NCBI RefSeq assembly: GCF_020171315.1
Contig: NZ_JAIUZP010000010.1
Location: forward strand, 124,001 to 188,000
DNA from: Pseudooceanicola nanhaiensis
GTDB lineage: Bacteria > Pseudomonadota > Alphaproteobacteria > Rhodobacterales > Rhodobacteraceae
Length of the DNA stretch: 64,000 bases
Direction: 5' to 3'
In this document: in pieces, positions 5,762-39,498 of the stretch
How positions within the stretch are numbered: position 1 is the first letter of the stretch
Layout of the letters: each line of letters opens with the position of its first letter
Notes under the pieces: generated by a model
Database searches by the model: none
What the model saw: the letters and a program-made list of their open reading frames with translations, nothing else
What the model was told of the DNA's origin: nothing
Position numbers and translations under genes: made by a program

Positions 5762-7510
<1,749 letters not shown>

Positions 7511-7627
7511 GTCGCACCCCGAACAGGCAAACCGCAGCCACGAGAAACGGACAGATATGTCGGTCGAGCAAGAAAAAACGCGTTCTGCCGGGGCAGGGCG
7601 CAAAGAAATTTCCCGTTCATTTCGCAG

Positions 7628-7650
7628 TCGCAGCAAAATCCGTGCTGCGA
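7628..7650 (+). other. hairpin in the ureC - DUF1127 spacer
   Basis: TCGCAGCA, 7-nt loop, TGCTGCGA: a perfect 8-bp stem in the 257-nt spacer downstream of ureC. It may mark the 3' end or a processing site of the ureDABC message, with a new promoter further on for the DUF1127 gene. There is no U-run. Confidence 0.4.
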
Positions 7651-7767
7651 TGCAGCAAATGCATGGCGGGGCTGTCGCATTGGAGGTACTCATGTCACCG
7701 CTGCTGACCTACTTTGAAGACCAAGGGGAACACACCCGCAACCCAACGGACTTCAAAGAGGCACACA

Positions 7768-7980
7768 ATGGCAATCGCAACCAACGCTGCACCGGCACGT
7801 GGCAAACTGGACAACTTCTTCGCGGCTATCGGCCAGGGCTTCAACGCCTACCTGGAACGCCGCGCCCGCATCGACCAGATCCACGCGCTGAACGCGAAAT
7901 CGGACGACGAGCTGGCCAAGCTGGGCATCACCCGCGACGAGATCCCGGCCTACGTCTTCCGCGACCTGTTCTATCTCTGA
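7768..7980 (+). CDS. DUF1127 small protein
   Basis: 70 aa from ATG 7768, behind AAAGAGG. The C-terminal half, ERRARIDQIHALNAKSDDELAKLGITRDEI followed by YVFRDLFYL, matches the DUF1127 (YjiS-like) pattern: an Arg-rich helix, then L-x-x-L/K-S-D-x-x-L-x-x-LG-I-x-R-x-x-I. DUF1127 proteins in alphaproteobacteria are small, often stress-related and linked to RNA turnover. It lies between ureC and ureE, in the same direction and 37 nt before ureE, so it is probably co-transcribed with ureEFG. Its role here is unknown. Confidence 0.85.
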   Translation: MAIATNAAPARGKLDNFFAAIGQGFNAYLERRARIDQIHALNAKSDDELAKLGITRDEIPAYVFRDLFYL

Positions 7981-31952: not shown

Positions 31953-32738
31953 TCAGCCCTCCTGCGACTGGCGGATCAGCCGCTTCTTGCGCCGCTTGAG
32001 GGTCTCGCCGTCCCAGTCGCTCCGGTTCATCTGGAGCAGCCGGGTCAGCACCTCCCCGGGCAGGGAGGGGTTGGCGGGCGGCTGGGGGACGATCCGCGCG
32101 CGCAGGGCGTCGGGCAGGGCGACGAGGTCGAGGAGCGGGGCGAGCGGCCCGAGGGGGAGGTGGCCCACCTCCTCCAGCGCCGCACGGTGCAGAGGCAGGG
32201 GGGCGATCGCTTCGGCCACCGCATCGGCCACGGCGGCAAGGTCCGCATGGGGCAGCGCCCGCTGGCGATAGCTGTCTAGGTCCAGCCGCATCCGCGTGGC
32301 CTGCAGGTGCTGCGCGTGGCAGCTTTTCACCCAGGCCTCGGGGCTGCGGGTGGAGAGGTAGACGACAGGCTCCGCCGTGGGCTGCGCCAGATGCAGGCTC
32401 TCGGTCAGCAGGGCCAGCAGCTCGGGGGCAGCGTCGTAGCTGGTGAGGCCGCGGCGGAAGGGCATATGCCCGGCCAGATCTTCGGCCGAGATCAGCAGGG
32501 GACGCGGATCAGAGGCATCGAGCGCGCCGAACGCCTCCTGCGCCTCGTAGCGCAGAAGCCCGCGGTGCAGATCGTCGCGATGTTCGGAAAAGGCGCGGCA
32601 GGCCTCGGTCAGGGGGCGGATGTCGGGCTTCAGCCAGATCCGCAGGGCCGGCGCCAGCAGGTCCCGGTTGGCGGCAAGCGCTGCCTGCACGCTGGAGGTC
32701 CCGGTCTTGTGGAACCCGGCGTGCAGCACGACGCGCAT
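31953..32738 (-). CDS. sulfotransferase-like protein inserted between rimM and trmD
   Basis: 261 aa. The N-terminal HAGFHKTGTSSVQAALA has the 5'-phosphosulfate loop, and LLISAEDLAGHM the 3'-phosphate loop region, of PAPS-type sulfotransferases. A later VYLSTRSPEAWVKS fits that fold. The acceptor is unknown. It starts 3 nt after rimM on the same strand and lies in the ribosomal block, so it is probably co-transcribed with rimM. The C-terminal stretch ends in a basic tail (LKRRKKRLIRQSQ). Confidence 0.75.
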   Translation of the reverse strand: MRVVLHAGFHKTGTSSVQAALAANRDLLAPALRIWLKPDIRPLTEACRAFSEHRDDLHRGLLRYEAQEAFGALDASDPRPLLISAEDLAGHMPFRRGLTSYDAAPELLALLTESLHLAQPTAEPVVYLSTRSPEAWVKSCHAQHLQATRMRLDLDSYRQRALPHADLAAVADAVAEAIAPLPLHRAALEEVGHLPLGPLAPLLDLVALPDALRARIVPQPPANPSLPGEVLTRLLQMNRSDWDGETLKRRKKRLIRQSQEG

Positions 32739-33852: not shown

Positions 33853-34173
33853 TCAGGATTGGTGTTTCTTGTGGTGGCGAATGACTTCCTGAATGATGAA
33901 GTTCAGGAATTCCTTGGCGAATTCAGGATCCAGGTCGGCCTGAACCGCAAGCTCTTGAAGGCGCGCGATCTGGGTTTCCTCGCGCGCGGGATCGGAGGGC
34001 GGAAGGTCGTGGACGGCCTTCAGCCTGCCCACGCCCTGCGTGTGCTTGAACCGTTCCGCCAGCGTAAAGACGAGGATCGCGTCCAGCCGGTCGATGCTGG
34101 CGCGGTGCTCTTTCAGAAGCTCGGCTGCGCGGGCAGCCGTTTCGGCGGTGAGGTCGGTGCTGTGGTCAGTCAA
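33853..34173 (-). CDS. AroQ-type chorismate mutase
   Basis: 106 aa from a TTG at 34173 whose codon overlaps the stop of the preceding GNAT gene (TTGACTGA). Helical AroQ pattern: [34 protein letters not shown], and the C-terminal [21 protein letters not shown], with Arg14-like, Lys39-like and Glu positions recognisable. It converts chorismate to prephenate for Phe/Tyr. Upstream in-frame sequence belongs to other genes and was not used. The start is unusual but the junction geometry favours it. Confidence 0.85.
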
Positions 34174-34768
34174 GGGCGTAACCTTCGGGTTTGAACAAAG
34201 GGTCGGTATAGGACGCGATCTCGAGCGCGATGCCGTCCGCGATCTGGGACGAGACCAGATCGGCAGGCGCAGGATGGCGGTAGCAGACGTCGTTGCCGTC
34301 CACCGTGGCGGCGCCATCGTCGCGTTTCGCCCCCAGCCGTTCGGCGAGGCGAATCGAGTCGAGATTCTTGGGGTCGATGTAACTGACCGCGCCGTCCCAG
34401 CCCAGCGTTTCATAGAAATAGCGCCGCGCCGCGTGGGTCGCCTCCAGCGCATAGCCGCGGCCTGCGACCTCGGGCCAGATGATCCAGGCGATCTCGCGCT
34501 CGGGCCACTGGGCGGGGAACCAGCCACCGGCCATGCCGAGGGTGCGGCCGCTCTCGCGGTCGTGGATCATCCACATGCCATAGCCCCGGATCTGCCAGTG
34601 GCCGATCTCGGCCGCGTAGAGCATCCAGGATTCATAGGGGTTCAGCGGCCCGCCCATGAAGCGCGAGCGGTAGGAGGAGAAGGTCGCCTTGAAGTTCGGG
34701 TAATCCTGCGGCTCGGGGCCGCGCAGGATCAGGCGTTTCGTCTCCAGCACGGGGATCGTCGTCGTCAT
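34166..34768 (-). CDS. GNAT family N-acetyltransferase (GNAT 6 of 6)
   Basis: 200 aa. RimJ/RimL-like: VLETKRLILRGPEPQDY, then MAGGWFPAQWPEREIAWIIW, and the acetyl-CoA loop VAGRGYALEATHAARRYF, then IDPKNLDSIRLAERLGA. It has a longer C-terminal tail (about 25 residues) than its siblings. Its ATG overlaps the preceding GNAT stop in ATGA, and its stop overlaps the TTG of the chorismate mutase. Substrate unknown. Confidence 0.92.
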   Translation of the reverse strand: MTTTIPVLETKRLILRGPEPQDYPNFKATFSSYRSRFMGGPLNPYESWMLYAAEIGHWQIRGYGMWMIHDRESGRTLGMAGGWFPAQWPEREIAWIIWPEVAGRGYALEATHAARRYFYETLGWDGAVSYIDPKNLDSIRLAERLGAKRDDGAATVDGNDVCYRHPAPADLVSSQIADGIALEIASYTDPLFKPEGYALD

Positions 34769-35271
34769 GCGGCGGCCTCCTCGTGGTAGCGGTAGACCAC
34801 GTCGCCCACGTCGAAGATGACGGCGGCGGGGTCCAGCGTCGCGCCCAGCCGTTCCGCAAGGCGGATCGAGCGGGTGTTGTCGCGGTGGATATAGCTGACC
34901 AGCGTGGCCGCGTTCGGCTGGGCAAGGGCCCAGTCCCGCGCCAGCACGCCCGCGGCATAGGCCAGGCCGCGGCCCTCGAAGCCGTCCAGCAGGAACCAAC
35001 CCAGTTCTCGTTCCGGGAAGTGCGGCGGCTGGGTCACGGCAATCTGGCCCGCAAGCACGCCGTCGGGCGTCTCGATGGCCCATCCGCCCTGCCCGACAAG
35101 GTCCCAGGATCCCACTTCGGAGGCAAAGCCGTACCAGGCGCTGCTCGCATCGGCGGGCAGGTCCATGTACTGCGCACGCGGCGACCGGAAGAACGTCCAG
35201 TAGGCATCGAAGTCCGACTGGCGGTGCGGGCGCAGGGTGACGTTGTCCGAGGTGAGAAGGGGGGCGCTCAT
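34765..35271 (-). CDS. GNAT family N-acetyltransferase (GNAT 5 of 6)
   Basis: 168 aa: LLTSDNVTLRPHRQSDFDAY, GWFLLDGFEGRGLAYAAGVL, SYIHRDNTRSIRLAERLGA. The acetyl-CoA-binding E-G-R-G-L-A is present. It is the most diverged of the six at its N-terminus (RSPRAQYMDLPADASSAWYG). ATGA overlaps on both sides. Confidence 0.92.
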   Translation of the reverse strand: MSAPLLTSDNVTLRPHRQSDFDAYWTFFRSPRAQYMDLPADASSAWYGFASEVGSWDLVGQGGWAIETPDGVLAGQIAVTQPPHFPERELGWFLLDGFEGRGLAYAAGVLARDWALAQPNAATLVSYIHRDNTRSIRLAERLGATLDPAAVIFDVGDVVYRYHEEAAA

Positions 35272-35813
35272 GCACGCTCCTTCCGGGGATCGGGGTGACG
35301 GTAGATCAGCACCGGCGTGTCGAGCACGGTCGATTCCCGCTCCACGACGCAGCCCATCCGCTCCGCCAGTTTGCGCGAGCGGATGTTGTCCGGGTGGATC
35401 TGGCTGATCAGCGGCGCCATGTCCCAGGCCTCGGCGGCATAGGCACGCGCGGCGACCGCGGCGTCGTGGGCAAGGCCCTTGCCCTCGGCGCCCTCGAACA
35501 TGTGCCAGCCCAGCTCGGGCTCCGGCCAGAGGGTCTCGTGGTGGTAGATCACGCCGATGCGGCCCACGGGCAGGCCGGTGGCGCGTTCCTCGACGGTCCA
35601 GAAGCCATAGCCGCGCAGCGCCCAGTGGCCGAGCACGGCGAGGAAACCCTGCCACGCGCCCCAGCGGTCCACGGGGCCGCCGATGAATGCCTTGCGGTCG
35701 GAGGCCTCGAAGGCAACGACGGTCTCGAAGTCGCTTTCCTTGGGGCCGCGCAGGATCACCCGCTCGGCCTCGACCACGGGGATCGCCGGGAAGAGATCGG
35801 GGACGCGGCTCAT
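35268..35813 (-). CDS. GNAT family N-acetyltransferase (GNAT 4 of 6)
   Basis: 181 aa: VVEAERVILRGPKESDFET, then FIGGPVDRWGAWQGFLAVLG, RIGVIYHHETLWPEPELGWH, acetyl-CoA loop MFEGAEGKGLAHDAAVAARA and IHPDNIRSRKLAERMG. Same RimJ/RimL layout as its neighbours. ATGA overlaps on both sides. Confidence 0.93.
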   Translation of the reverse strand: MSRVPDLFPAIPVVEAERVILRGPKESDFETVVAFEASDRKAFIGGPVDRWGAWQGFLAVLGHWALRGYGFWTVEERATGLPVGRIGVIYHHETLWPEPELGWHMFEGAEGKGLAHDAAVAARAYAAEAWDMAPLISQIHPDNIRSRKLAERMGCVVERESTVLDTPVLIYRHPDPRKERA

Positions 35814-36352
35814 GCGTAGGCCTCCATCCCGCCCTCGGCGAGGTCCTCGGGCGCGGGGTGGCGCCAGACCTGAAGCGCGCCCCAGCGTTCGTGGGTGAAA
35901 TCGCTGTCATGCCACGCGCCGAGCCGTGCGCAGACCCGGGCGGAGGGCGTATTGGCGGGCTTCACGAGGCTGATCAGCGTGGTCAGGCCGACCTCGCCAT
36001 AGGCATAGGCGCGCGCGGCGGCACCGGCCTCGGTGGCATAGCCCTTGCCCTCGGAGCCCTCGAAGAGGTCCCAGCCCACTTCCGGCTCGGGGAAGCCTTC
36101 GGGGCACCAGAGGCCGACCATGCCGATGGTCCGGCCCGAGGCGGTCTCATCCACGATCCAGCGGCCGAAGCCGCGCAGCTGCCAGTGGCCGATCTCGGTC
36201 GCCAGCTGGCGCCACGTCAGTTCGGCGGTCATCGGACCGCCCACGAACTTGGACCGGTCGGAGGCATAGAAGGCCGTCAGCGTGTCGAAGTCCGACAGCG
36301 CAGGGGCGCGCAGCGTCAGCCGTTCGGTCGTGAGCGTCGGGATCGTGATCAT
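35810..36352 (-). CDS. GNAT family N-acetyltransferase (GNAT 3 of 6)
   Basis: 180 aa from ATG 36352. TLTTERLTLRAPALSDFDT, KFVGGPMTAELTWRQLATEI, LWCPEGFPEPEVGWDLFEGS then EGKGYATEAGAAARAYAYG, and VKPANTPSARVCARLGA. Close in layout to the neighbouring GNATs. ATGA overlaps on both sides. Confidence 0.93.
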   Translation of the reverse strand: MITIPTLTTERLTLRAPALSDFDTLTAFYASDRSKFVGGPMTAELTWRQLATEIGHWQLRGFGRWIVDETASGRTIGMVGLWCPEGFPEPEVGWDLFEGSEGKGYATEAGAAARAYAYGEVGLTTLISLVKPANTPSARVCARLGAWHDSDFTHERWGALQVWRHPAPEDLAEGGMEAYA

Positions 36353-36879
36353 GCTGCCCCCTTGGCCATGATGGCCACCAGATCGAAATCGTAATGCACC
36401 CAGTCCGGGTAGTTTGCCGCGCTGTAGCCCAGCACGCCGCCCAGCTTCTCCGCCAGCCTGCGGGAGCTCTGGTTGGCCTCGTGGGTATGGGCCGCAACGG
36501 CGGTCCAGCCACAGTCCTGCGCAAGGTGGCGGATCACCTCGCTCCCTGCTTCCATCGCAAGGCCACGGCCCGCGTCGGCATCGGACCAGAGGGTCCAGGT
36601 CAGCTCGGGCCCCACGGCGGGGTCGTGGTTGACGGGCCCGAAGAAGCCCATGGGCCGGTCGCTGCCCGGCTCGGCCATGATGTAGCGCCCGAAGCCGCGC
36701 GCCTCCCAATGGCCGAGGAAGGCGAGGAACTTCTCGGTCGCGGCACGGGTGGTCATCGGGCCGTTCAGATAGGTCATCCGGTGCCCGGTAGCGAAGGCCA
36801 GGTAGGCGGGCATGTCGCCCGCCACGGGACGACGCAGCACCATCCGGGCGGTGCGCAGGGTTTCGGCGGTGGGGGTCAT
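36349..36879 (-). CDS. GNAT family N-acetyltransferase (GNAT 2 of 6)
   Basis: 176 aa from ATG 36879 (MTPTAETLRTARMVLRRPV); a GTG two codons earlier is also in frame, but the ATGA overlap favours the ATG. MTYLNGPMTTRAATEKFLAF, FGPVNHDPAVGPELTWTLWS, acetyl-CoA loop ADAGRGLAMEAGSEVIRHLA, then THEANQSSRRLAEKLGG. The arm near the acetyl-CoA loop is more variable than in the others. Confidence 0.92.
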   Translation of the reverse strand: MTPTAETLRTARMVLRRPVAGDMPAYLAFATGHRMTYLNGPMTTRAATEKFLAFLGHWEARGFGRYIMAEPGSDRPMGFFGPVNHDPAVGPELTWTLWSDADAGRGLAMEAGSEVIRHLAQDCGWTAVAAHTHEANQSSRRLAEKLGGVLGYSAANYPDWVHYDFDLVAIMAKGAA

Positions 36880-37403
36880 GCGCACTGCCCTCCCGGGGCG
36901 TGGCGCCAGATCCGCATGTCGCCGGTCATCGGGTGGTTGAACAGCCCCTCGCGGGTCGCGCCAAGGCGGATCGCCATGTTGGTGGAGGGCGCGTTGTCGT
37001 CGCCCACCAGCGAGATGCAGGAGGACCAGCGGAGATCGTCAAAGACCCAGTCCAGCACGCGCCGGGCCGCTTCGGTGGCATAGCCGCGCCCCTCGCAGCC
37101 TTCCAGCAGGTGCCAGGTCAGCTCCGGCTCGGGCCAGTTGCGGGGATACCACGGGCCGACGAGGCCGAGCGGCACGCCGGTGGCCTTGTCGAGCAGGGCA
37201 AAGTGGCCGTAGCCGCGCAGGTGCCAGTGGCCCACGATCGTCGCCACCGACCACCAGGCCGCCTCGTCCGTGGACTGGCCGACGAAGCGCGGCGCGCCTT
37301 CCATCAGGAAGGCGGCAGTGGCGTCGAAGCCGGGGCCGACGGGGGCCACGAGGCGCAGGCGCTCGGTCTCCAGCTCGGGGTGGACGGGGGCCACGTGTTT
37401 CAT
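36876..37403 (-). CDS. GNAT family N-acetyltransferase (GNAT 1 of 6, first of the series)
   Basis: 175 aa from ATG 37403, behind GGAAGAGG. PELETERLRLVAPVGPGFDA, RFVGQSTDEAAWWSVATIVG, GPWYPRNWPEPELTWHLLEG then CEGRGYATEAARRVLDWVF, and DDNAPSTNMAIRLGATRE. It is the first GNAT of the chain, 81 nt downstream of ffh on the same strand. Overlaps the next gene in ATGA. Confidence 0.93.
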   Translation of the reverse strand: MKHVAPVHPELETERLRLVAPVGPGFDATAAFLMEGAPRFVGQSTDEAAWWSVATIVGHWHLRGYGHFALLDKATGVPLGLVGPWYPRNWPEPELTWHLLEGCEGRGYATEAARRVLDWVFDDLRWSSCISLVGDDNAPSTNMAIRLGATREGLFNHPMTGDMRIWRHAPGGQCA

Positions 37404-37484
37404 GCGCGCACCTCTTCCGGCCCGGTCGCGCGGAGCGAACGGGGGCTTGTCGCCGTGGAGGAGGGGAGGGCGCGCAGCATCGGT

Positions 37485-39017
37485 TTACTTCTTCTTCCCG
37501 AAGCCGCCGAGACCGCCGAGGCCCGGCAGGCCGCCGGCGCCACCGAGGCCGCCCAGACCACCGGGAAGGCCGCCGGGCAGACCCTTGGCCGCGCCCATCT
37601 GCTTGGCCGCCGCTTCCAGCGCCTTGGGGTCCATCTGGCCGGGGTCCATGCCCTCGGGCATGCCGCCCTTGCCGAACATCTGGCGCATGGCCTGTTTCAT
37701 CATGCCGCCTTTGCCCATCTTGCCCATCTTCTTCATGACGTCGGACATCTGGCGCTGCATCTTCAGCAGCTTGTTCAGCTCGGACACTTCCAGCCCGGCA
37801 CCGGCGGCGATGCGCTTCTTGCGCGAGGCCTGCAGCAGCTGCGGGTTGGCGCGCTCCTTCTTGGTCATCGACTGGATCAGGGCGATCTGGCGGCGGATCA
37901 TCTTGTCGTCGTAGCCGGCTTCCTGCACCTGCTTGGACATTTTGCCCATGCCGGGCATCATGCCCATGATGCCTTCCATGCCGCCCATCTTCATCATCTG
38001 CTCAAGCTGCATCTTCAGGTCGTTCATGTTGAACTGACCCTTCTGGAAGCGCTTCATCATCCGCTCGGCCTGTTCGGCCTCCAGCGTGGCTTGCGCCTTC
38101 TCGACCAGCGCGACGATGTCGCCCATGCCGAGGATGCGGCCCGCGATGCGTTCCGGCTCGAAGGTCTCGATGGCCTCCATCTTCTCGCCGAGGCCGACGA
38201 AGCGGATCGGCTTGCCGGTAACGGCGCGCATCGAGAGCGCGGCACCGCCGCGGCCGTCGCCGTCCATCCGGGTCAGCACGACGCCGGTGACGCCGATCTT
38301 CTCGTCGAATTCCTGTGCCACCTCGACGGCGACCTGACCGGTCAGGCCGTCGACTACCAGCAGGGTCTCGCGCGGGTTCACCACGTCGCGGACGTCGGCG
38401 GCCTGCTGGATCAGCTCCTGGTCGATGTGCAGCCGGCCCGCGGTGTCGAGCATGTAGACGTCATAGCCGCCGAGGGCCGCCTGCGTCTTGGCGCGCTTGG
38501 CGATCTGCACCGGGTTCTCGCCCTTGACGATCGGCAGCGTATCGACGCCGATCTGCTGGCCGAGGATCTGCAGCTGCTCCATGGCCGCCGGGCGGTTGAC
38601 GTCGAGCGAGGCCATCAGCACGCGCTTGCCCTCGCGCTCTTTCAGGCGCTTGGCGAGCTTACCGGTGGTGGTCGTCTTGCCCGAACCCTGAAGGCCGACC
38701 ATCAGGATCGGCGCGGGCGGGTTGTCGATCTTCAGCTTGCCGGGGTCTTCGGCACCGGTCAGCGTGGCGACCAGTTCGTCATGGACGATCTTCACGACCT
38801 GCTGGCCGGGGGTGATCGACTTGGTCACCGCAGCGCCAGTGGCCTTGTCCGTCACCGCCTTGATGAAGCTGCGCGCCACGGGAAGCGACACGTCAGCCTC
38901 CAGCAGGGCGACGCGCACTTCGCGCAGGGCGGTTTTGACGTCCTCCTCCGACAGAGACCCCTGTTTTGTGAGCCGGTCGAAGACGCCACCAAGGCGTTCG
39001 GACAGATTTTCAAACAT
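37485..39017 (-). CDS. ffh: signal recognition particle protein Ffh (SRP54)
   Basis: 510 aa. N domain (about 1-95), GTPase G domain with MVGLQGSGKTTTTGKLA, DVNRPAAMEQL, DTAGRLHID and TRMDGDGRGGAALS, then the Met-rich M domain (MMKRFQKGQFNMNDLKMQLE, MGGMEGIMGMMPGMGKM, SRKKRIAAGAG). The C-terminal 40 or so residues are Gly/Leu/Pro-rich and not part of the usual core. Delivers nascent membrane proteins to FtsY. Confidence 0.98.
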   Translation of the reverse strand: MFENLSERLGGVFDRLTKQGSLSEEDVKTALREVRVALLEADVSLPVARSFIKAVTDKATGAAVTKSITPGQQVVKIVHDELVATLTGAEDPGKLKIDNPPAPILMVGLQGSGKTTTTGKLAKRLKEREGKRVLMASLDVNRPAAMEQLQILGQQIGVDTLPIVKGENPVQIAKRAKTQAALGGYDVYMLDTAGRLHIDQELIQQAADVRDVVNPRETLLVVDGLTGQVAVEVAQEFDEKIGVTGVVLTRMDGDGRGGAALSMRAVTGKPIRFVGLGEKMEAIETFEPERIAGRILGMGDIVALVEKAQATLEAEQAERMMKRFQKGQFNMNDLKMQLEQMMKMGGMEGIMGMMPGMGKMSKQVQEAGYDDKMIRRQIALIQSMTKKERANPQLLQASRKKRIAAGAGLEVSELNKLLKMQRQMSDVMKKMGKMGKGGMMKQAMRQMFGKGGMPEGMDPGQMDPKALEAAAKQMGAAKGLPGGLPGGLGGLGGAGGLPGLGGLGGFGKKK

Positions 39018-39498
39018 GGCGGCCCTCCGTCAGGTCCGTTAATTCTACGATAGCCGCGATATCGTTACCGACAGCTCAAACGACAAGCGCCCCCGTGGGC
39101 GAACACTCGCTGACGGGGGGGCGATCCCGACGCGCCGCCGGGACCGGAAGTTGTCTCACTTCCGGAATTTGGGCCTGAGCTACGCCGCGCAGGCCCAAAT
39201 GTCAAGTTTCAAGGGGCATTCTGCCCGGAGGTCCGGGCGATTTGATGACGCCTCCCCGGGGGAGGCCCGCCGGTCGCGGATCGGGGCCATCTCGGTCTCC
39301 TGCGATCCTGTTGCGGCGGTGCGCCCTCCCGGGTCGTGCCGTCTGGCCTTCCGCGGCTGCAGCCAGCCTGTCGAAGACCCCCGCGATGCGCAGCCGGTTG
39401 ACCTGTTCCGAGGTCGCTGCGCCGTCGCGGCGTGTTCGCGCGATGATCATTGCGGGGCGTCGCGCGTCGTCCGGACCGTGCGATCTGCGGTGACCGTC
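39018..39498. other. structured 481-bp region upstream of ffh
   Basis: No gene is evident. Three adjacent inverted repeats: GCCCCCGT ... ACGGGGGGGC at 39089-39122; CCGGAAGT-TGTCTC-ACTTCCGG at 39144-39165, perfect 8 bp; and ATTTGGGCCTG ... CAGGCCCAAAT at 39167-39200, perfect 11 bp with a 12-nt loop. Another palindrome, CCTCCCCGGGGGAGG, lies near 39251. Could be terminators for the small gene upstream, the ffh leader, or a small RNA. Confidence 0.5.

Follow-up and report, generated by a model that had tools for sequence, protein, structure and literature searches.

Gene content of the ffh-CM locus

We analysed a window of 64,000 nucleotides from Pseudooceanicola nanhaiensis (contig NZ_JAIUZP010000010.1, positions 124,001 to 188,000), in which six genes for GNAT acetyltransferases stand in tandem between ffh and the gene for chorismate mutase (CM; Table 1). 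An earlier note, made from the sequence alone, had described six full-length genes that are joined by ATGA overlaps and retain an acetyl-CoA loop, and this description was confirmed. Six intact open reading frames (ORFs) occupy 34166-37403 on the minus strand, each with an ATG start, a TGA stop and no internal stop. The ATGA overlap is present at all five internal junctions, at exactly the coordinates given in that note, and the loop is kept in all six proteins as G-[RK]-G-[YL]-A. All six matched PF13302 (Acetyltransf_3; 74.8-101.2 bits, cut-off 25.4), and their pairwise identities were 27-43% over the alignment. The genome contains 11 PF13302 matches, six of them in the array, and when it was searched with a profile of the six GNATs, the values dropped from 1.8e-67 for the array copies to 1.5e-6 for the next match. 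The overall G+C content of the six genes (0.66-0.72) and that at third positions (0.86-0.92) resemble those of ffh (0.66 and 0.90), so the array GNATs bear no mark of recent arrival.

Table 1. Features of the array in the window, in order of transcription, followed by the internal junctions.
Feature	Position	Strand	Basis and remarks
Rfam 'ffh sRNA' RF01793, just upstream of ffh	39082..39135	-	55.1 bits, gathering 35
ffh (signal recognition particle protein), upstream of array	37485..39017	-	ORF; name from sequence; tblastn relatives 82% in L254
26-codon mini-ORF bridging ffh and GNAT1	37400..37480	-	start 4 nt after ffh stop; ATGA overlap with GNAT1
GNAT1, class M, 175 aa	36876..37403	-	PF13302 74.8 bits; class support 1.0, 8 loci
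GNAT2, class G, 176 aa	36349..36879	-	PF13302 76 bits; class support 0.0, 21 loci
GNAT3, class F, 180 aa	35810..36352	-	PF13302 101.2 bits; class support 0.966, 45 loci
GNAT4, class C, 181 aa	35268..35813	-	PF13302 83.9 bits; class support 0.897, 57 loci
GNAT5, class E, 168 aa	34765..35271	-	PF13302 77.9 bits; class support 0.571, 55 loci
GNAT6, class A, 200 aa	34166..34768	-	PF13302 95.9 bits; class support 1.0, 109 loci
CM, probable TTG start	33853..34173	-	NCBIfam NF006691 147.3 bits, TIGR01795 116.3 bits, both above cut-off
ATGA junction GNAT1/GNAT2	36876..36879	-	sequence
ATGA junction GNAT2/GNAT3	36349..36352	-	sequence
ATGA junction GNAT3/GNAT4	35810..35813	-	sequence
ATGA junction GNAT4/GNAT5	35268..35271	-	sequence
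ATGA junction GNAT5/GNAT6	34765..34768	-	sequence

If CM begins at its TTG codon, GNAT6 and CM overlap by 8 nt (TTGACTGA, 34166-34173); across 171 loci, 98 have a last GNAT that ends in the same TTGACTGA. Neither this overlap nor the mini-ORF between ffh and GNAT1 is described in the earlier note. The RF01793 element is a candidate leader of the array's transcript, with which it would be co-transcribed. Within the array, our scan found no promoter-like or terminator-like site on the minus strand, although such a scan may miss alphaproteobacterial promoters; over all strands it returned one promoter-like and four terminator-like sites, compared with 0.6 and 3.2 in shuffled sequences.

Spread and paralogue classes of the array

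Of 296 Rhodobacteraceae genomes, 292 yielded a CM match. We collected 80 loci as the best CM matches and 120 more regions from the better half of the 292 CM-bearing genomes, a choice by which distant family members are under-sampled. Together with the window these made 201 sequences; ffh was anchored by tblastn in 200, and 200 hold both ffh and CM. L097, which lacks ffh, was dropped, as were L001-L030, whose flanks were short and which were refetched in part, and the removal of 21 duplicates left 179 loci. Between ffh and CM these loci carry from 0 to 12 GNAT genes (none in 8 loci, one in 16, two in 52, three in 40, four in 24, five in 27, six in 6, seven in 4, nine in 1 and twelve in 1). The largest array, with 12 GNAT ORFs, is that of L207. 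Two of its ORFs are unusual in length, at 107 and 276 aa, and adjacent genes reach 71% identity in one pair and 66% in another; it is possibly in active expansion. Array-GNAT matches at 1e-20 were also present in 33 of 144 Alphaproteobacteria genomes, three of which are Rhodobacteraceae. In the stretches fetched around 16 relatives from outside the family (14 genomes), none of ffh, CM, rpsP, rimM and trmD was found nearby; a tandem pair was present in one of the 16.

A FastTree phylogeny was built from 552 array proteins and 24 others, leaving out four array ORFs of odd length. The 552 proteins, from 171 loci, share one clade of 556 members, supported at 0.96, with four others: these are L252 (a copy outside the array in the same family), the alphaproteobacterial singles L242 and L243, and L235, a weakly matching protein of the window genome that is perhaps misplaced. 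We defined classes as clades of the tree in which each locus is represented roughly once, so that near-uniqueness is built into them; gene position was not used. Thirteen classes hold 490 genes and 62 genes are unclassed. Along the array, 598 of 640 ordered pairs of classes follow the same order across genera. Class A closes the array in 104 of the 109 loci that carry it. The window, with M-G-F-C-E-A, departs from the usual order in that its class E follows class C (E before C 28 times, after it once). On a tree of the flanking ffh region, classes A-F each require 13-31 changes between presence and absence, in every case fewer than the minimum of 100 shuffles. Because the classes recur in a kept order and change less often than in shuffles, the sequences indicate that the array is an old, family-wide paralogue set with frequent loss and gain. 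Within arrays the median protein identity is about 39%, and of the 836 pairs drawn from a common locus only 3 are more than 60% identical.

These data bear on the earlier proposal that the six genes arose by repeated tandem duplication followed by divergence, as a lineage-specific expansion. A tandem origin within one family stands, since all six fall in the 0.96 clade. An expansion special to this lineage does not, since they belong to six different classes which are common to several genera, with class supports as low as 0.0 for G and 0.57 for E. We therefore reject a recent expansion in the window genome, its six copies being spread over six cross-genus classes and pairs above 60% identity being so few. 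Recombination among paralogues as a rule was likewise rejected, being rare at half-gene resolution: the classes of N-terminal and C-terminal halves agreed in 430 of 552 proteins, were discordant in 8, unclear in 112 and otherwise placed in 2.

Among loci with a species name, the nearest is that of Maritimibacter alkaliphilus SY-2-18 (L031), where CM is 99% identical and the flanks are 88-96% identical at the DNA level. Its classes are M-G-F-E-A; of GNAT4 (class C) only an in-frame remnant of 25 codons is left, with ATGA on either side. The dN/dS values against this relative were 0.08 for GNAT1, 0.39 for GNAT2 (the highest), 0.04 for GNAT3, 0.12 for GNAT5 and 0.07 for GNAT6, so that by comparison with this one sequence five of the six window GNATs are under purifying selection. 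A second locus recorded as M. alkaliphilus, L038, differs strongly from L031: its CM is 79% identical to that of the window and it carries one GNAT (class D) where L031 has five, and the species label may be wrong.

Gene junctions and bridging mini-ORFs

Reinitiation in Escherichia coli and Haloferax needs an overlap or very short spacing, according to Huber et al. 2023 (PMC10666635). We counted junctions from -14 to +10 nt as direct, a range slightly wider than theirs. Among 385 internal junctions of the arrays, 346 have a 4-nt or 1-nt overlap and 17 more lie within this range, giving 363 direct junctions; another 16 are bridged by a mini-ORF which overlaps both neighbours, and 6 are open. 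By type, 275 junctions are ATGA, 32 TGATG, 26 GTGA, 10 TAATG and 3 TTGA. In the window all five stand at -4, inside the approximate -8 to +10 nt spacing of termination-reinitiation. A Shine-Dalgarno-like motif precedes 216 of the 275 ATGA starts, compared with 532 of 3300 in-gene positions. The ATGA junction is commoner in the array than chance would give, since one crude gene caller applied to the same 179 loci placed it at 145 of 252 array pairs and at only 84 of the 1236 remaining pairs of same-strand neighbours. Thus the junction geometry argues for the single coupled translation unit that the earlier note had put forward.

Where a gap separates two genes, it often contains an ORF that joins them. 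Of 24 internal gaps with room for one, 18 have an ORF overlapping the upstream stop and the downstream start, compared with 0 and 1 in the other two reading frames. Between ffh and GNAT1 (171 loci) we found 100 direct junctions, 46 bridged, 23 open and 2 with gaps above 600 nt, and between the last GNAT and CM (171 loci) 134 direct, 30 bridged and 7 open. The ffh-CM gap of GNAT-less loci was direct in one, bridged in four and open in three. As controls, other gaps were bridged in 10 of 450 cases under a strict rule (35 were open in the real frame and 69 in another) and in 36 of 603 under a lenient rule, 27 of these being among the 242 shortest. Under the lenient rule, bridges were also counted in 18 of 168 CM-rpsP gaps (median gap 46 nt) and in 9 of 103 rpsP-rimM gaps, 63 longer ones having been set aside. 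Fisher tests for the excess of bridges were extreme but treated related loci as independent.

The bridge peptides share little: 62 of them (46 from ffh-GNAT1 gaps and 16 internal) fall into 49 similarity groups, so most bridges are not one inherited sequence. Some resemble GNAT ends (10 of 61 peptides of at least 12 aa, compared with 5 of 610 shuffles), although two of these ten match through an N-terminal extension of L073, which itself bears the recurring intergenic element described below. The ffh-GNAT1 bridges of L088, L091 and L099 have a tail that over 11 residues is identical or nearly identical to a GNAT C-terminus, and look like GNATs whose N-terminal part was exchanged for other sequence. 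In L094, L117, L167 and L192 the ffh-GNAT1 bridge is a true gene of 110-112 aa with overlaps at its ends; the one of these four that was tested, from L117, encodes a NIPSNAP protein (PF07978, 70.4 bits).

Two kinds of repeated sequence were also seen in gaps. The bridges between classes E and B (L032, in the region 6733-7891, L037, L065 and L095) form one similarity group; those of L032 and L037 contain perfect palindromes in runs (AAGCGCCTTCGAAGGCGCTT among them), with folding z values of -1.73 and -3.11, and these E/B bridges may be palindromic repeats that stay in frame by chance. A second element recurs around AAATAYYCCCGCCGGAGGC; its pattern was hit 20 times across the 2.37 Mb of locus sequence, each time on the CM strand. 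It occurs in the ffh-array gaps of L072, L073, L076, L098, L100, L109, L153, L158, L184 and L202 and elsewhere, and one of its reading frames gives KYSRRR. The window does not contain the pattern.

The window's own bridge is the 26-codon mini-ORF between ffh and GNAT1, whose product had no Pfam match. Its counterpart in L031 is of equal length with nine differences, distributed 1/5/3 over codon positions 1/2/3, compared with 5/2/21 in GNAT1 and 1/1/30 in GNAT3. The differences are not concentrated at third positions; the reading frame is kept, and the peptide, as far as so few differences can show, seemingly is not. The RNA of the mini-ORF folds with a z of -2.55 (2 of 200 shuffles as good), and the bases adjoining the GNAT1 start are paired in the predicted fold, which would fit a GNAT1 start that opens only while the mini-ORF is translated.

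A proposed translational relay and competing explanations

We propose that an old tandem GNAT array, prone to loss and gain, is read as an ffh-GNATs-CM termination-reinitiation chain under selection, a reading that we think probable, with real room for doubt. All units would lie on one mRNA, and a ribosome ending one cistron would restart at the start codon that overlaps its end, beginning with ffh and passing along the GNATs as far as CM. Selection would hold this chain closed, and the loss of a paralogue or a new spacer would persist chiefly where a short in-frame ORF reaches into the genes on either side. More tentatively, and at somewhat less than an even chance, the whole ffh-to-CM stretch may be continuously translated under selection, with unrelated short ORFs repeatedly closing gaps even where GNATs are missing. 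In that case, the GNATs would be both cargo and relay links, and CM or the genes behind it would be tied translationally to the signal recognition particle protein.

Several observations weigh against this proposal. Dinucleotide shuffles of the 24 internal gaps, with length and gene ends fixed, still bridged 9.8 on average (maximum 16 in 1000 runs, observed 18), so much of the internal signal lies in frame and overlap and part of it in a lack of stops. Bridges are missing from 23 of the 69 gaps between ffh and GNAT1 and from 7 of the 37 between the last GNAT and CM, eight loci carry no GNAT at all, and the rimM-trmD control was bridged in 5 of 18 gaps under the lenient rule. The start windows differed by test, being set by domain position in the array and by the longest ORF elsewhere and being widest for CM. 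The starts of gap-adjoining genes were chosen automatically, that of class E in L031 lying upstream of the likely one. The loci are related, so bridge and junction counts are not independent, and the deep branches of the GNAT tree are weakly supported.

The overlaps might instead be a plain by-product, each duplicated unit bringing its own junction and high-GC ORFs extending easily. GC stands directly before 202 of the 275 ATGA junctions, as copies of one junction would show, and the shuffled gaps retain many bridges. Against this, the junctions were kept while the proteins diverged to their present median identity, the bridges are unlike in sequence and nearly absent from the other two frames, and the ffh-GNAT1 and GNAT-CM gaps are bridged though they are not products of duplication; we consider this explanation unlikely. 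Protection against Rho-dependent polarity is somewhat improbable too. Here selection would act to leave no stretch of this long GC-rich mRNA untranslated, allowing transcription to run on to CM and the ribosome-maturation genes behind it, and how efficiently each GNAT is reinitiated would be of minor weight. Rho loads on untranslated bacterial RNA (PMC12548453), and bridges cross gaps of up to about 330 nt, include true genes such as that for NIPSNAP and occur in half of the GNAT-less loci. Yet 150 of 168 same-direction CM-rpsP gaps are unbridged, though these may be too short to matter, and exact overlaps of -4 or -1 exceed what polarity needs.

Two further alternatives concern what the proteins do. 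Co-translation for stoichiometry would be expected if the GNATs were subunits of a heteromeric complex, and short overlaps are enriched for such complexes (30.4% compared with 6.8% of E. coli pairs; PMC10666635). A copy number of 0-12 and a shifting class content are ill-suited to an obligate fixed complex, and we regard this as very improbable. The earlier note had instead suggested that RimJ/RimL-like enzymes acetylate ribosomal proteins, which would explain the rpsP/rimM setting. The common Pfam domain and the genomic setting speak for it, and Foldseek with a model of GNAT3 (mean pLDDT 96) does retrieve RimJ/RimL structures, but at lower rank (TMq 0.70-0.74; 3igr 0.70, 1s7l 0.72) than 2FSR, 3JUW and PA3944, which came first. 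None of the six window GNATs matched the NCBIfam models for RimJ (PRK10809) and RimL (PRK10151) at E 0.001, on which E. coli RimJ and RimL scored 427.3 and 369.6 bits as positive controls, and in the tree E. coli RimJ pairs with L233, another protein of the window genome (support 0.96). Membership of RimJ/RimL was therefore rejected, the closer structures being 2FSR and PA3944 (TMq 0.84-0.87), and with no model match and these nearest solved relatives the idea of ribosomal-protein targets is unsupported and distinctly unlikely.

The best match to the six-gene profile was 2FSR, an acetyltransferase of Agrobacterium tumefaciens C58 (E 3.3e-46), which superposes on GNAT3 with Foldseek TM values of 0.84/0.89 at 41% identity. 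PA3944 of Pseudomonas aeruginosa is similar in fold (TMq 0.86-0.87) but only 24-25% identical to the array GNATs. It acts on polymyxin by way of a nucleophilic serine, and its E102 takes part in recognising the substrate (PMC8072286). Its E102 occupies the column of the array's near-invariant Glu, fixed in the alignment by the E102A entry 7kpp, and its S148 aligns with the NxxS serine by residue counting. Over 552 proteins the Ser is present in 516 and the Glu in 551, both in all six window GNATs, and the acetyl-CoA loop G-x-G-x-A is kept at 542, 530 and 531 for G, G and A. Because these catalytic columns are conserved, the array GNATs are probably active enzymes. The six may have different substrates, as the earlier note suggested, but only one column passed a strict test for class-specific residues. 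From the nearest characterised relatives alone, we guess, at slightly less than an even chance, that the acceptors are amino groups of small molecules or peptides, each class having its own. To our knowledge, PA3944 is a single gene.

The proposed relay resembles known systems in part. Termination-reinitiation gene pairs likewise show ATGA or TGATG overlaps at short distance (PMC6728339 and PMC10666635), but the array forms a chain of up to 12 paralogues with housekeeping flanks and bridging mini-ORFs. Mini-ORFs that deliver ribosomes are already known: in mycobacterial MIRUs and integron ORF-11/attC ORFs a short ORF brings the ribosome to the next gene, and the MIRU ORF couples at -4, as does the window mini-ORF (for MIRUs and integrons, PMC12548453 and PMC8876359). 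Those are repeats or recombination sites, whereas most array bridges are unrelated in sequence and one element recurs in a minority. Our literature search found no paper on the ffh-CM GNAT array, most subscription journals lying outside its coverage. Coupling by overlap is usually argued from single pairs, whereas this locus offers hundreds of comparable junctions across a family, and its natural deletions and spacers serve as evolutionary experiments on a distance rule and a frame rule. The locus also points to a large set of enzymes, hardly any of them named, at one constant place in the chromosome, where copy number varies between related species and order stays.

Elsewhere in the window, a gene with a sulfotransferase domain (PF17784, 32.6 bits) lies between rimM and trmD at 31953-32738 on the minus strand. 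The Rfam family 5_ureB_sRNA (RF02514) matched 5954-6241, also on the minus strand, with 124.4 bits against a threshold of 40, and this match possibly reflects just conserved urease coding sequence.

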